From positions 1-64,000 of the forward strand of contig NZ_JADGIK010000005.1 in assembly GCF_015234135.1 (NCBI RefSeq): 64,000 nt of DNA. The letters are read 5' to 3'. Made by a program: the position numbers and the translations under genes. A model generated the notes under the pieces. It worked only from the letters and a program-made list of their open reading frames with translations. It did no database searches and was not told the origin of the DNA. Positions 43,873 through 54,729 of this stretch are shown here, one piece after another. Origin of the DNA: Faecalibacter rhinopitheci (lineage in GTDB: Bacteria > Bacteroidota > Bacteroidia > Flavobacteriales > Weeksellaceae). Each line of letters starts with the position of its first letter. Position 1 is the stretch's first letter.

Positions 43873-44274
43873 TTAGTAAACAAAACATAAAACCTCACCA
43901 CCAACATTCTCTTGACGAGCTTGTTTCTCAGTCATCACACCTTTAGAAGTAGAGATGATAGCGATACCTAAACCGTTTAATACACGAGGTAATTCTTTAG
44001 ATCCTGCATATTGACGTAAACCTGGAGTTGAAGCTCTTTTGATTTTACGGATAGCTGGTTCTTTAGTTACTTTGTCGTACTTTAAAGCAATTTTGATTGT
44101 ACCTTGAGGTTGATCTTGTCCTTCAAATTTGTAGTTTAAGATGTAACCTTGTTCAAATAAGATCTTAGTGATCTCTTTTTTGATTTTTGATGCAGGGATT
44201 TCCACAACTTTGTGTCCCGCCATCATTGCATTTCTAACGCGAGTTAGAAAATCTGAAATTGGATCTGTATACAT
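43873..44274 (-). CDS. rpsH: 30S ribosomal protein uS8
   Basis: A 133-residue uS8 starting [20 protein letters not shown] and ending [10 protein letters not shown] longer frame opens at 44343 but its first 23 codons lie inside the promoter and leader hairpin, so the ATG at 44274 is right. Normally it follows rpsN in the spc operon; here rpsN is 4 kb away behind a thiamine cluster, and rpsH is the first gene of a new operon with its own promoter at 44352-44380. In Escherichia coli uS8 represses spc translation at rplE; whether it controls its own leader here is open. Confidence 0.97.
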
Positions 44275-44290
44275 AAATAATTCTATAGTA

Positions 44291-44350
44291 TAGGGAGTTA
44301 CCCTACTTTTAAAATTAAAATTTAACCAAAATGCACTATGCATTTGGGTT
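44291..44350 (-). promoter_or_regulatory. rpsH operon 5' leader with two hairpins
   Basis: Just downstream of the promoter, a 12-base stem with one mismatch (44324-44335 with 44339-44350) closes on a 3-base loop. A second, shorter stem TAGGG/CCCTA (44291-44295 and 44301-44305) follows near the start codon. The first may be an RNA hairpin at the 5' end of the transcript or a DNA operator. No ribosome-binding-site interaction can be shown. Confidence 0.5.
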
Positions 44351-44351
44351 G

Positions 44352-44380
44352 CAAATATATTGCATATTTTTTAATTACAA
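44352..44380 (-). promoter_or_regulatory. promoter of the rpsH-rplQ operon
   Basis: Minus strand TTG (44380-44378), spacer of exactly 18, -7 box TATATTTG (44359-44352). This is the best consensus promoter in the window. It replaces read-through from the S10 operon, which is cut off by the thiamine cluster. The transcript would start near 44347. Confidence 0.8.
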
Positions 44381-44549
44381 ACAATTAATCTCAATAATTT
44401 ATTTTTAATCATTTTAGAATTAGGGATTAAGGTAAAACAGCCTATCGTAAAAATATATTTTTGAGAAATTAAGCATCAAAAACTACTTTTATAAACCATT
44501 CATCAAATTAATAAAATGAAAAAATAGCGTAATGTTGAAACTATTTATA

Positions 44550-44557
44550 TAAATTTG
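44550..44557 (+). promoter_or_regulatory. -7 box of the thiamine operon
   Basis: TAAATTTG on the plus strand matches TAnnTTTG and would start RNA at about 44562, exactly at the 5' end of the TPP aptamer. The nearest TTG (44535-44537) is only 12 bases upstream, so the -33 element is poor. Confidence 0.5.
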
Positions 44558-44559
44558 AT

Positions 44560-44640
44560 TTGGCTTTAGGGGTATTCTAAAAAGAATTGAGACAGTCCCT
44601 TTGAACCTGATACGGTTAACACCGACGTAGGGAAAAGCAA
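44560..44640 (+). ncRNA. TPP riboswitch (THI element)
   Basis: The conserved THI-box cores are present: TAGGGGT near 44567-44573, TTGAGAC at 44587-44593, CCCTTTGAACCTGATACGG at 44598-44616 and the closing CGACGTAGGGAAAAGCA to 44639. P1 can form between TTGGCTT (44560-44566) and AAGCAA (44635-44640). It binds thiamine diphosphate and lowers expression of the thi genes. It lies directly upstream of thiM, as is common. Confidence 0.93.
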
Positions 44641-44645
44641 TATTT

Positions 44646-44734
44646 ATGCAATTATTGATATAATTGTATGCTTTAATTTCAAAGAAAAATCCTCTTCAGC
44701 CATTAATTGTTTTATCATAATTATCAATTAATGG
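44646..44734 (+). promoter_or_regulatory. putative riboswitch expression platform sequestering the thiM start codon
   Basis: A perfect 10-base inverted repeat, CCATTAATTG (44700-44709) and CAATTAATGG (44725-44734), encloses a 15-base loop, and its 3' arm contains the thiM ATG (44731-44733). Upstream, CAATTAT/ATAATTG (44649-44655 and 44660-44666) forms another hairpin whose 5' arm can pair instead with TAATTG of 44704-44709. The two structures are therefore mutually exclusive, as needed for a translational switch. No U run follows, so transcription termination is unlikely. Confidence 0.6.
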
Positions 44735-45534
44735 AAAATCAAATCATTCAAAATTTACAGGCTGTACGAAAAAAAAATCCGCTCGTACACAACATTACCA
44801 ACTTTGTGGTTATGAACAATACAGCAAACGCACTTTTAGCAATTGGTGCATCTCCTGTTATGATTCATGCGCATAAAGAAATAGAAACTATTGTCGAAAT
44901 CTCCAATTCTTTGGTCATCAATATCGGAACTGCAGATGATTATTGGGCAGAAAGTATGTTGATCGCTGCTAAAAAAGCGAATCAAATTAATAAACCTTGG
45001 ATTTTAGATCCTGTTGGTGCTGGTATTTCAACTTTCAGAAATGATTTACTAAAAGAATTGTTGACTTATCAACCAACTGTTATACGAGGAAATGCTTCCG
45101 AGATTATGGCTTTAGATTCTTTCAGTCATATTCAAGGAAAAGGAGTCGATAGTTCGCATCAAAGTAATCAAGCATTGCAAGCTGCACAAAATTTGAATCA
45201 AAAATTTGATTCTATTATATGTATATCTGGCGCATCTGATTTTGTAGTTGACAATCATCAAATCGTAGAAATAAAAAATGGACACGAAATGATGACAAAA
45301 GTTACAGGTTTGGGTTGTTCGGCTACAGCTATTATTGGTGCTTTTATTGGTCTTAATGAAAATGCTTTTCTAGAAACAATCAGTGGTATGTCAATTTTTA
45401 GTTTGGCTGGAGAATTAGCGCAACAAAAAAGTAACGGACCTGGGAGCTTACAGATGAATTTGTATGATATTCTATATAATTTATCAGAAGAAGAAATTCG
45501 TTCACATTTGAGAATCTCTGTTTATGAAAATTAA
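44731..45534 (+). CDS. thiM: hydroxyethylthiazole kinase
   Basis: A 267-residue ribokinase-like enzyme that phosphorylates 4-methyl-5-(2-hydroxyethyl)thiazole for thiamine salvage. Family segments: NPLVHNITNFVVMNNTANAL near 17-36, WILDPVGAG near 90-98 and the anion hole VTGLGCSATAIIGAF near 191-205 with catalytic Cys. A TTG eight codons upstream lies inside the sequestering hairpin and is rejected. First gene after the TPP riboswitch; overlaps thiE by 11 bases. Confidence 0.95.
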   Translation: MENQIIQNLQAVRKKNPLVHNITNFVVMNNTANALLAIGASPVMIHAHKEIETIVEISNSLVINIGTADDYWAESMLIAAKKANQINKPWILDPVGAGISTFRNDLLKELLTYQPTVIRGNASEIMALDSFSHIQGKGVDSSHQSNQALQAAQNLNQKFDSIICISGASDFVVDNHQIVEIKNGHEMMTKVTGLGCSATAIIGAFIGLNENAFLETISGMSIFSLAGELAQQKSNGPGSLQMNLYDILYNLSEEEIRSHLRISVYEN

Positions 45535-46183
45535 TCCAGTTTTTCCTTATCCGTTATATTTAGTCATTTCAGAAAAAGATTGCATTCATCATCATTGGTT
45601 AGATATTGCGGAACAAGCAATTTTAGGTGGAGTTGACATCATTCAACTAAGAGAAAAAGATTGTACAACCAAAGAATATATCGCGAAAGCAACTGAACTA
45701 AAAAAAATTACAGATCATTACTCAATTCCATTGATTATCAATGATTCGTTAGAAGTTGCGACTACTGTTAATTCTTGGGGAATACATGTAGGAAGAACAG
45801 ATATTTCACCGTCCGAAATTATCAATCATCCAGACTCTCCAAAAAATATTGGTTGGTCGTTAGAAGTGATTGAGCAATTAAATGAAAATGAAATGCAATT
45901 TGTACATCATTTAGGTGTTAGTCCTATTTTCTCTACTCCAACCAAAACCAATACAATTTCTGAATGGGGTTATGAAGGATTACAAAATTTGAAACCAGAA
46001 ACTTCCAAACCTTTGATCACAATTGGAGGAATTAATGAAAATAATATTGCCAAAATTGTACAAGCTGGTGCAGATAGTGTTGCTATTGTTTCTGCCATTT
46101 GCGGAAGTAGTAATCCTAAAAGATCAGCACAAATTTTAAAACAAATTATCAATCACAATGAATACAATCCGAAAACCATATAG
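45524..46183 (+). CDS. thiE: thiamine phosphate synthase
   Basis: A 219-residue TIM-barrel enzyme that joins hydroxymethylpyrimidine diphosphate and thiazole phosphate. Motifs: GGVDIIQLREKD near 35-46 (pyrophosphate loop), LIINDSLEVA near 79-88, WGIHVGRTD near 92-100 and LITIGGINENN near 164-174. It overlaps thiM by 11 and thiD by 26 bases, so the cluster is translationally packed. Confidence 0.95.
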   Translation: MKINPVFPYPLYLVISEKDCIHHHWLDIAEQAILGGVDIIQLREKDCTTKEYIAKATELKKITDHYSIPLIINDSLEVATTVNSWGIHVGRTDISPSEIINHPDSPKNIGWSLEVIEQLNENEMQFVHHLGVSPIFSTPTKTNTISEWGYEGLQNLKPETSKPLITIGGINENNIAKIVQAGADSVAIVSAICGSSNPKRSAQILKQIINHNEYNPKTI

Positions 46184-46994
46184 TGTTTTAACCATTGCAG
46201 GTTTTGATGGAAGTGGCGGCGCAGGTATACAAGCTGACACCAAAACAATTTCCGCGCATGGTTGCTATGCAACAAATGTGTTGACAGCTTTACCAATTCA
46301 AAATACACAAGGCGTAAAAAATATTTACGAAATCCCAACCGAAGCTATTCGAGAACAAATTCAGTCTATTTTAGAAGATATTTATCCTGATGCAATAAAA
46401 ATTGGAATGGTTCATAGTGTCGAGTTAGTGAATATTATCTCGGAAGAACTTAAAGATTATAAGAATCCGATTGTTTACGATCCTGTAATGGTTGCGACAA
46501 GTGGACATCGATTAATCAAAAAAGAAACTATTGCAGCATGTGTTGAAAAACTTTTTCCTTTGGCAACACTTATTACACCAAATCTTGATGAAGCAAGTGT
46601 GTTGGTTAATCATAAAATAGATTCGACTGATTTGATGATTTCTTATGGAAAAAAAATTATGGATTTAGGTTGTCAAAATCTTTTATTGAAAGGAGGGCAT
46701 TTGGAGCAAGAAGAAATAGTGAGTTATTTATTTCAAAAAAATCAATCTGTCCAAAGTTATACTTCGCAAAAAATAGCGACCAAAAATACGCACGGTTCTG
46801 GTTGCTCTTTATCTTCTGCAATTGCAAGTAATTTAGCATTAGGATTTCCACTTTCAGAAAGTGTAGAATTGGCACAAAAATATATTGAGCAAGCAATTTT
46901 AGGAAGCAAAGACTTAACAATTGGCAAAGGAAATGGACCTTTAAATCATTTATTCAATCCTCAAAAATTAAAAACATATGACATTCACAACTAA
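46158..46994 (+). CDS. thiD: bifunctional hydroxymethylpyrimidine kinase / phosphomethylpyrimidine kinase
   Basis: A 278-residue ribokinase-fold enzyme that phosphorylates HMP twice. It opens with VLTIAGFDGSGGAGIQADTK and has the catalytic anion hole KNTHGSGCSLSSAIASN near 211-227 and VYDPVMVATSG near 110-120. Overlaps thiE by 26 and tenA by 17 bases. Confidence 0.95.
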   Translation: MNTIRKPYSVLTIAGFDGSGGAGIQADTKTISAHGCYATNVLTALPIQNTQGVKNIYEIPTEAIREQIQSILEDIYPDAIKIGMVHSVELVNIISEELKDYKNPIVYDPVMVATSGHRLIKKETIAACVEKLFPLATLITPNLDEASVLVNHKIDSTDLMISYGKKIMDLGCQNLLLKGGHLEQEEIVSYLFQKNQSVQSYTSQKIATKNTHGSGCSLSSAIASNLALGFPLSESVELAQKYIEQAILGSKDLTIGKGNGPLNHLFNPQKLKTYDIHN

Positions 46995-47640
46995 AGCTTG
47001 GAAAACAATCGCGCCTATTTATGATGATATTATAAATATGCCGTTTATAAAAGAATTACGAAATGGAACATTACCAATAGAAAAATTTCAGTTCTATATG
47101 TTACAAGACGCAAAATATTTAGAACATTTTGGTCGTGTATTAGCAGTGATTGGTGCAAAATCTGAAGACAATCAACAAGCAATTGATTTTTTCGAATTTG
47201 GTAAAAATGCCTTGATTGTAGAACGCGCTTTACACGAATCTTATTTCCAAGATTTTGGATTAGCACAAAATATCAGTATAGAAACACAACCTGTTTGTCA
47301 TCATTATTCGCATTTCTTAAAAAGCACCGTTACATTCGAACCTATCGAAGTTGCTTTGGCTGCAGTTTTACCTTGCTTCTGGATTTATAAGGAAGTAGGC
47401 GATGAAATCATCAAAAATCAATCAAAAGAAAATAATCCTTATCAAAAATGGATTGATACGTATAGCGGAGAAGATTTTGGCGAAGGTGTAAAAAAAGCAA
47501 AACAGTATGTTGACAAAATTGCAGAAGAAACAACTGATAAAATAAAAACGCAAATGCTAGAAGCTTTTGTAAAAGCAAGCGAATTAGAATTTCAGTTTTG
47601 GAATGCTGCTTATGAAAACATCACATGGAACAGAAAATAA
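46978..47640 (+). CDS. tenA: thiaminase II / aminopyrimidine aminohydrolase TenA
   Basis: A 220-residue all-helical TenA protein that deaminates aminopyrimidine breakdown products of thiamine so they can be reused as HMP. Segments: FQFYMLQDAKYLEHFGRVLA near 37-56, and AAVLPCFWIYKEVG near 130-143 with the nucleophilic Cys. It fits a salvage cluster that lacks thiC. Overlaps the HAD gene by 16 bases. Confidence 0.93.
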   Translation: MTFTTKAWKTIAPIYDDIINMPFIKELRNGTLPIEKFQFYMLQDAKYLEHFGRVLAVIGAKSEDNQQAIDFFEFGKNALIVERALHESYFQDFGLAQNISIETQPVCHHYSHFLKSTVTFEPIEVALAAVLPCFWIYKEVGDEIIKNQSKENNPYQKWIDTYSGEDFGEGVKKAKQYVDKIAEETTDKIKTQMLEAFVKASELEFQFWNAAYENITWNRK

Positions 47641-48263
47641 AAGCAATTTTTTTTGATTTTGACGGAGTAATTGTTGACAGTTTACAATTATGGAATTTGA
47701 TGTTTGAGGAAGTTGGGAAAACATACAAATTAAATGCAACTTGTTTACTTGAAAATGATGGATTGAATTTCACGACGAATGAAGCCATACAATTAATGCT
47801 AGAAAATCAGCAACGATTTACGACAGATTTATATGAAGAAATTATTGATTGGACTGAGTTATTTTATGTTGAACATTTTCATCATTATATAAAATTGAAT
47901 GATTATGTGATTGAGATGTTAGGAAATTTAAAATCAAATCACATTCAGATTCTTCTTGTTTCAAATTCATCGCGTAAACAGATAAATCATGCATTCAAGG
48001 TATTAAAACTCCATCCATATTTTGATCATACAATTACGGCTGATGATGTTTTGAAAGGGAAACCAGATGCAGAACCTTATTTAAAAGCTTTGTTATTATC
48101 CCAAAAACAAAAAGAAGAAATTATAGTAATCGAAGATTCGTTGACAGGAATAGATGCAGCAAAAAATGCAGGATTAACGTATAAAATATATAAACATCCC
48201 GACTATATTCAACATCCCAATTATTTAAGTGATTTTAGAGAAATCATCAAAATGATACAATAA
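47625..48263 (+). CDS. HAD superfamily phosphatase, possible thiamine-phosphate phosphatase
   Basis: A 212-residue HAD-IA hydrolase. Motif I FFDFDGVIVDS supplies D11 and D13, motif II is LLVSNSSRKQI near 104-114, and motif IV VIEDSLTGIDAAKNAG near 169-184. Being last in a tight thi operon suggests that it acts on thiamine phosphate (Bacteroidota often lack ThiL and use a phosphatase plus pyrophosphokinase) or on HMP phosphate. The substrate is inferred from place only. Confidence 0.8.
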   Translation: MEQKIKAIFFDFDGVIVDSLQLWNLMFEEVGKTYKLNATCLLENDGLNFTTNEAIQLMLENQQRFTTDLYEEIIDWTELFYVEHFHHYIKLNDYVIEMLGNLKSNHIQILLVSNSSRKQINHAFKVLKLHPYFDHTITADDVLKGKPDAEPYLKALLLSQKQKEEIIVIEDSLTGIDAAKNAGLTYKIYKHPDYIQHPNYLSDFREIIKMIQ

Positions 48264-48294
48264 AAAAATCCTTACTCAATAAAGAGTAAGGATT
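48262..48294 (-). terminator. terminator of the str-S10 operon at the thi junction
   Basis: An 11-base stem AATCCTTACTC/GAGTAAGGATT (48267-48277 and 48284-48294), loop of 6, followed on the minus strand by seven T. It ends transcripts coming from rpsN. On the plus strand the tail is A/T mixed, so it is weaker for the thi operon. Confidence 0.88.
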
Positions 48295-48318
48295 AATATA
48301 TTAATAGCTAATGGTATA

Positions 48319-48588
48319 TTACCAAGAAGCTTTTTTAACACCTGGGATTAACCCTTCGTTTGCCATCTCACGGAAAGTTACACGAGAGATCCCGAAAGTT
48401 CTCATGTATCCTCTTGGACGTCCTGTTAATTTACAACGGTTGTGTAAACGTACAGGAGAAGCGTTTTTAGGTAATTTTTGTAATGCTTCGTAATCACCAG
48501 CTTCTAATAAAGCAGTTCTTTTCGCAGCATATTTAGCAACTAATGCTTCTCTTTTGCGCTCACGCGCTTTCATTGATTCTTTAGCCAT
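48319..48588 (-). CDS. rpsN: 30S ribosomal protein uS14
   Basis: An 89-residue uS14 of the long, zinc-free type (a single Cys in [20 protein letters not shown] terminus PGVKKASW). In nearly all bacteria rpsH follows; here the operon stops and a terminator faces the thiamine genes. Starts 2 bases after rplE. Confidence 0.97.
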
Positions 48589-54618: not shown

Positions 54619-54646
54619 TGTTATAAATTTATTTAATTAATAATAT

Positions 54647-54714
54647 AAAATTTAAAGAAAACCTGCCGTTAGAGACGACAGGATTCTTCTATTTATTTTG
54701 AGATTGCAAATATA
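54647..54714 (-). promoter_or_regulatory. internal -7 box and attenuator-like hairpin before rplC
   Basis: In the rpsJ-rplC gap, a -7 box TATATTTG (54714-54707, minus) is followed by stem CCTGTCGT/ACGGCAGG (54682-54675 and 54669-54662, loop of 5) and then TTTTCTTT. The hairpin plus T tract has the form of an intrinsic terminator inside the leader of rplC, so it may be an attenuator for the S10 part of the operon. A TTG at a normal distance is absent (29 bases), so the promoter is less certain than the hairpin. Confidence 0.55.
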
Positions 54715-54729
54715 GTAAAAAAAATTTAA

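Follow-up and report, generated by a model that had tools for sequence, protein, structure and literature searches.

In the 64,000-nucleotide stretch of Faecalibacter rhinopitheci DNA analysed here (contig NZ_JADGIK010000005.1, positions 1 to 64,000; hereafter the window), a plus-strand unit consisting of a thiamine pyrophosphate (TPP) riboswitch and the genes thiM, thiE, thiD, tenA and a HAD-superfamily hydrolase lies between the minus-strand ribosomal protein genes rpsN and rpsH. On both sides of this thi island the ribosomal protein genes, all on the minus strand, keep their standard order (rpsL...rpsN and rpsH...rplQ). The S10-spc cluster to which they belong is often viewed as a fixed, vertically inherited block. 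Our analyses suggest, with a probability of roughly 0.77, that the island is a transferable thiamine-salvage cassette docked at a pre-existing border of this cluster. At rpsN|rpsH one transcription unit would end in a terminator after rpsN and a second would begin with a promoter and leader ahead of rpsH; DNA entering there would be harmless because little or nothing should be cotranscribed across the border. The riboswitch-controlled cassette occupies this joint in some species. It moves from species to species and from genus to genus, probably through homologous recombination in the conserved ribosomal genes at its sides and without an integrase.

The island has a patchy distribution. Our family sample comprised 148 Weeksellaceae genomes drawn from a larger group, one genome per species, including 14 Empedobacter genomes (with which the window genome is grouped in all counts) and three genomes of the related genus g28. 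thiM occurred in 22 of the 148, and adjoined rpsH in five of those 22: the window genome, E. sedimenti, E. falsenii Q1655, E. brevis NBRC 14943 and the g28 genome G049, that is, in four of the 14 Empedobacter and one of the three g28 genomes drawn. These five islands are identical in gene order, orientation and position. Another Empedobacter genome (G044) carries a distant thiM and thiD elsewhere. The E. falsenii genome G099 has the island and G117 lacks it, though their ribosomal genes are 97–100% identical at third codon positions, so that presence/absence polymorphism between fixed core genes occurs even among close relatives. Among 80 of the 140 thiM loci found, only three, all from Empedobacter, had ribosomal protein genes in their flanks (up to 8 kb). 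Beyond the family, a class search covered 119 genomes, of which two gave no match, two belonged to the family and 115 lay outside it. In 114 of these 115, rpsN and rpsH share a contig, the median gap between them being 34 bp, and the arrangement is thus not class-wide; the single class gap of at least 300 bp measured 923 bp (G204), and in G172 the two genes lie on two contigs.

These results change parts of an earlier, sequence-only reading of the window, which had taken the insertion to be old and settled and had expected thi genes at this joint in one clade only. The first view is contradicted by the patchy presence in Empedobacter and by the transfer described below, and the second by the g28 island. 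Misassembly, which that reading had raised as a concern, is very unlikely because the arrangement recurs in three other Empedobacter assemblies and in G049, a single-contig 2.27-Mb assembly from another genus.

The evidence for transfer comes from divergence, measured as third-codon identity in reciprocal-best genes, with thi genes compared against control genes. Between E. brevis and G049 the five thi genes are 84% identical (81–91%), the controls only 45% (43–53%, n = 6) and the genes of the ribosomal cluster 63%; between E. falsenii and G049 the values are 87% for thi and 46% for controls, and between E. brevis and E. falsenii 95% (91–97%) and 66% (57–89%, n = 36). Consistent with these values, a tree of the ThiM, ThiE and ThiD proteins puts G049 together with E. 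brevis and E. falsenii at 100% support, while the pairing of E. brevis with E. falsenii inside this group reaches only 60%, and monophyly of the Empedobacter thi proteins is rejected (approximately unbiased [AU] test, P = 0.013). The non-coding flanks are also mosaic. E. brevis and G049 have a similar, unusual terminator of about 55 bp right behind the rpsN stop codon, the first 16 bases of which were absent from every other locus compared, and E. falsenii is the same as the island-free G117 over 58 bp past the rpsN stop and over the final 135 bp ahead of rpsH. The 84% versus 45% third-codon identity and the terminator common to E. brevis and G049 argue for transfer, and by these sequence comparisons the island has clearly been passed among E. 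brevis, E. falsenii and the g28 genome, most likely through homologous recombination in the ribosomal-gene flanks. E. sedimenti differs from this pattern: its thi proteins are 79% identical to those of E. brevis, compared with 89% for control proteins, and it carries a different, older thi allele.

The window's own copy is a different matter, and several observations weigh against extending transfer to it or against the proposed route. At the protein level this copy stands at a roughly equal distance from the islands of the other three Empedobacter (82% identity; controls 76–77%) and from that of G049 (79%; controls 68%). At third codon positions its thi medians against the other three Empedobacter are 64–65%, with controls at 51–54%, which places them close to, or a little over, the upper end of the control ranges, and against G049 the values are 62% for thi and 44–51% for the six controls. 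We see no clear sign in these figures that the window copy was recently transferred, and they would allow it to have been inherited, with losses elsewhere. As well, no foreign tract was found within rpsN or rpsH at the gene level, the crossovers being visible only as mosaics in the flanks, and the G049 comparison rests on only six control genes.

The strongest alternative is age: a single old insertion that predates the split of Empedobacter and g28, was passed on by vertical descent and has since disappeared from most of the lineages. The common position and gene order of the five islands would fit such a history, as would the similarity of their left-end non-coding sequences (judged by eye), the inverted repeat around the start of thiM in all five, and the divergence of the window copy, which is not far from what descent would predict. 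Vertical descent is a poor fit, on the other hand, to the third-codon contrasts of both E. brevis/G049 and E. brevis/E. falsenii, the AU test rejects it, and a scan of the region in seven of the 10 Empedobacter genomes without an island gave no riboswitch remnant at the gathering score. We consider this alternative unlikely overall, and for the group of E. brevis, E. falsenii and G049 it is already contradicted.

Gap lengths along a series of 30 adjacent genes were measured in 60 regions plus the window, from 57 Weeksellaceae genomes, and any gap more than 300 bp above the median was scored as an insert. At rpsN|rpsH, 10 of 54 genomes had an insert; at rpsJ|rplC, nine of 28 did. The other 27 junctions had none, except in G003 (at rpsE-rplO and infA-rpsM). 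Across the 25 junctions from rplC to rplQ, these two G003 cases were the only inserts besides those at rpsN|rpsH. The 10 of 54 is an enriched figure because regions with long rpsN-rpsH gaps already seen were deliberately included, although the contrast between junctions of the same genomes is less affected by this choice. In these 57 genomes the cluster thus has two breakable joints, rpsN|rpsH and rpsJ|rplC. At this second weak joint (54,619–54,729 in the window), insert-bearing gaps measure 1.2–3.3 kb (L143, L145, L138, L114, L137), and the inserts of E. sedimenti and E. brevis encode similar proteins of 517 and 516 amino acids.

The cargo at rpsN|rpsH varies, comprising the thi island in five genomes, five other inserts and two likely rearrangements. 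By eye, the non-thi inserts consist of single hydrophobic open reading frames (ORFs) in G117 and G055, two ORFs in G038, three short ORFs in G059 (one of them lipoprotein-like) and, in G025, 674 bp with no ORF of 60 codons. In the Empedobacter genome G092 and in G009, each half of the cluster has a large contig of its own (L015/L016 and L103/L104) and is at least 23 kb from the contig ends, which is likely to be a true split at rpsN|rpsH; in G069, G079 and G088 the two genes are on different contigs or one gave no match, and this pattern may reflect assembly gaps.

That the joint accepts such different inserts could also mean that each lineage acquired its thi island independently at the same site, guided by a site-specific element. 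The common order and orientation of the five islands speak against this, and their similar left ends and start-codon repeat point to one island rather than to five insertions. Nor was an integrase found: none of the five island proteins matched one (NCBIfam, Pfam), in agreement with the sequence-only reading, no repeat was seen either, and the non-thi inserts, inspected by eye only, showed none. Separate insertions are accordingly very improbable.

The structure of the joint without any island bears on how it could be entered. The empty junctions of Empedobacter and g28 (n = 10) are 210–394 bp long. In all 10, rpsN is followed by a CCTTACTC...G(A/G)GTAAGG hairpin with a T-run, and a TATATTTG box (–7) precedes rpsH, with the full TTTG-N-TATATTTG form in five of the 10. 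The presence of terminator and –7 box in empty junctions argues that, as far as sequence can say, the S10-spc cluster consists of two transcription units meeting at rpsN|rpsH. In this respect the earlier reading was right that the two halves are self-sufficient, with a terminator after rpsN and a promoter before rpsH. Its claim that the island cuts a running spc operon, by one settled insertion, agrees with the gene order in the window but is scarcely credible given that both signals already stand in the empty relatives and that the island moves.

Transfer of a cassette into a pre-existing border could be taken one step further. If regulation of the second half is independent of whatever lies upstream, cassettes could dock and be exchanged freely, and rpsN|rpsH might be an integrase-free docking bay: a second half-operon with its own promoter and its own uS8 feedback hairpin, which would mimic the uS8 site of 16S rRNA, and ahead of which cassettes would be traded between genera with essential ribosomal genes serving as homology arms. 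We regard this wider proposal as tentative, and somewhat more doubtful than not.

All gene calls in the window rest on NCBIfam profiles with curated cut-offs, Pfam and Rfam gathering scores, and the profile matches bear out the coordinates and gene identities given in the sequence-only reading. Reading from the rpsH side, rpsH itself (43,873–44,274, minus strand; PRK00136, 180 bits) opens the second half and forms one conserved arm of the joint. Ahead of it on the same strand are a leader hairpin with an AAGU-stem-AUACU core (44,279–44,316), discussed below, and the promoter (44,352–44,381), present as claimed earlier and read from the sequence as TTTG-N18-TATATTTG, a form which we take to be a Bacteroidota-type promoter. 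The plus-strand island follows, beginning with the TPP riboswitch aptamer (44,558–44,650; Rfam RF00059, 75 bits against a gathering score of 54.3). The inverted repeat CCATTAATTG...CAATTAATGG (44,700–44,734, plus strand), also read from the sequence, encloses the start codon of thiM and is possibly the expression platform of the riboswitch. thiM (44,731–45,534, plus strand) encodes hydroxyethylthiazole kinase (PRK09355, 333 bits, and TIGR00694, 286 bits, both over 44,746–45,534) and most likely starts at the ATG at 44,731. The remaining plus-strand genes are thiE (thiamine phosphate synthase, 45,524–46,183; TIGR00693, 170 bits), thiD (kinase of hydroxymethylpyrimidine [HMP] and its phosphate HMP-P, 46,158–46,994; TIGR00097, 307 bits), tenA (aminopyrimidine salvage, 46,978–47,640; TIGR04306, 157 bits, cut-off 130) and, as the final island gene, the HAD-superfamily hydrolase (47,625–48,263; Pfam HAD_2, 106 bits), which reached no NCBIfam equivalog cut-off. 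The aptamer and ThiM, ThiD, ThiE and TenA are all over their respective cut-offs. The HAD stop codon shares two bases with the T-run of the rpsN terminator (48,262–48,294, minus strand), an intrinsic terminator read from the sequence with the seven T reported earlier and with a similar hairpin in island-free relatives. rpsN (48,319–48,588, minus strand; NCBIfam PRK08881, 120 bits) ends the first half and is the other conserved arm of the joint; further into this half, rplE matches its NCBIfam profile with 279 bits, above the curated cut-off.

What the cassette would contribute can be judged from the rest of the genus. ThiC was found in none of the 14 Empedobacter genomes, and without thiC they should not make the pyrimidine half of thiamine; thiamine pyrophosphokinase is present in all 14, as is ThiL, over its cut-off. 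In the window's genome, a second TPP-like element (L002, 1508–1603; 45 bits, below the cut-off) stands ahead of a gene that by eye is TonB-receptor-like. Together these features suggest that Empedobacter is probably a thiamine auxotroph which takes up thiamine, and that the island would add salvage of both halves of the molecule. Judging from their gene families, ThiM, ThiD, ThiE and TenA would enable the cell to assemble thiamine phosphate out of scavenged halves and degradation products, with TPP switching the cassette off. We also considered, in view of literature on Bacteroides, that the HAD protein might be a required thiamine-phosphate phosphatase, but this is weakened by ThiL in all 14 Empedobacter genomes, as ThiL phosphorylates thiamine phosphate directly and a phosphatase step is not required.

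The thi genes themselves have familiar counterparts: their order is that of the thiM-thiE-thiD-tenA salvage operons of other Bacteroidota, such as the Sphingobacterium and Chryseobacterium loci, from which the island differs in ending with an added HAD gene. For the joint, the closest parallels lie in two bodies of work. Integrase-free hotspots of homologous recombination were described in 2017 (PMC5635113), and like those outlined there, rpsN|rpsH combines accessory genes between fixed core genes with mosaic flanks, cargo that differs between genomes and no visible mobile element; unlike them, the border is inside the S10-spc ribosomal cluster and the exchange reaches another genus. For the rpoBC-str-S10-spc-alpha cluster of Gammaproteobacteria and Bacilli, insertions and exchanges have been reported, including exchange of rpsN itself by recombination in Streptococcus pneumoniae (Genome Biol Evol 2021, PMC8046335). 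These cases likewise involve small gene sets at operon borders of the same cluster, but the insertions covered in the part cited are at rpoBC-str, str-S10 and rplL-rsmC, whereas the site described here, rpsN|rpsH, falls within spc and holds a recently transferred insert. A very conserved block of ribosomal genes would thus have a place where genes come and go. In Weeksellaceae, two joints of S10-spc admit foreign genes and one insert has passed from genus to genus at an unchanged position. This matters for the use of these genes as markers and for understanding exchange without mobile elements.

The hairpin of the rpsH leader reads AAGU-stem-loop-stem-AUACU, with a variable inner stem kept through compensatory changes, and the window genome's own 16S rRNA contains the same core, AAGU-CAGUGG...CCAUUG-AUACU, on either side of a stem which we take to be helix 21. 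The core with at least four stem pairs occurs in 26 of 57 Weeksellaceae rpsH leaders, compared with 25 of 22,800 shuffled leaders, and is missing from the other 31 of the 57; beyond rpsH leaders, the motif occurs 10 times in the 3.04 Mb scanned (both strands). The covariation score of the leaders is 0.247 against 0.115 in shuffles (0 of 500 reaching it), with 95% versus 90% of cells paired, although pairs that vary on both sides number three against 2.4 in shuffles, a value which 241 of 500 reach. Folding energy does not single the leader out: three leaders gave z-scores of –1.25, –0.73 and –2.24. In two leaders and the consensus, moreover, GUAG is predicted to pair with CUAU rather than the uS8-like core being formed; support for the leader rests on covariation, not on folding energy.

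A model of this leader (R1), which matches the window with 54.9 bits and includes the window leader in its building set, gave 25 matches in 1.13 Mb from 62 sources; they show specificity only, as all are rpsH leaders from the building set or identical to these. Among 148 genomes of the order it gave a match in one, the window's own leader, a result that is not evidence of absence because the filters were stricter and, for the genomes listed, the scoring covered 45 candidates each. At the gathering score, Rfam has no match for the window leader; S8 has no entry in Table 1 of a 2020 list of new ribosomal leaders (PMC7247131), and our literature search found no published rpsH leader of such kind.

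uS8 binds 16S helix 21, and the uS8 feedback site of the E. coli spc operon is likewise an mRNA hairpin resembling that site (review PMC10931766). In E. coli, however, the site is at rplE, while the hairpin considered here, for which uS8 is the predicted ligand, stands before rpsH, behind the terminator-promoter border. The sequence-only reading, which had supposed that uS8 feedback on rplE would have to work in trans, missed this likely site before rpsH itself; a repressor protein, moreover, acts in trans anyway. The hairpin is a candidate uS8 feedback site of the second half-operon in part of the Weeksellaceae, a candidate for a new uS8 ribosomal leader and a concrete place to look for such a site in Bacteroidota. 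None of 20 rpsH leaders from other families, picked for long gaps among the 115 genomes, contained AAGU-stem-AUACU. By eye, the rpsH leaders of other Bacteroidia families (L185–L203) have different hairpins that look conserved, such as AUAAUUA-stem-UAACAUAU, which recurs in several genomes, in place of the uS8-like core.

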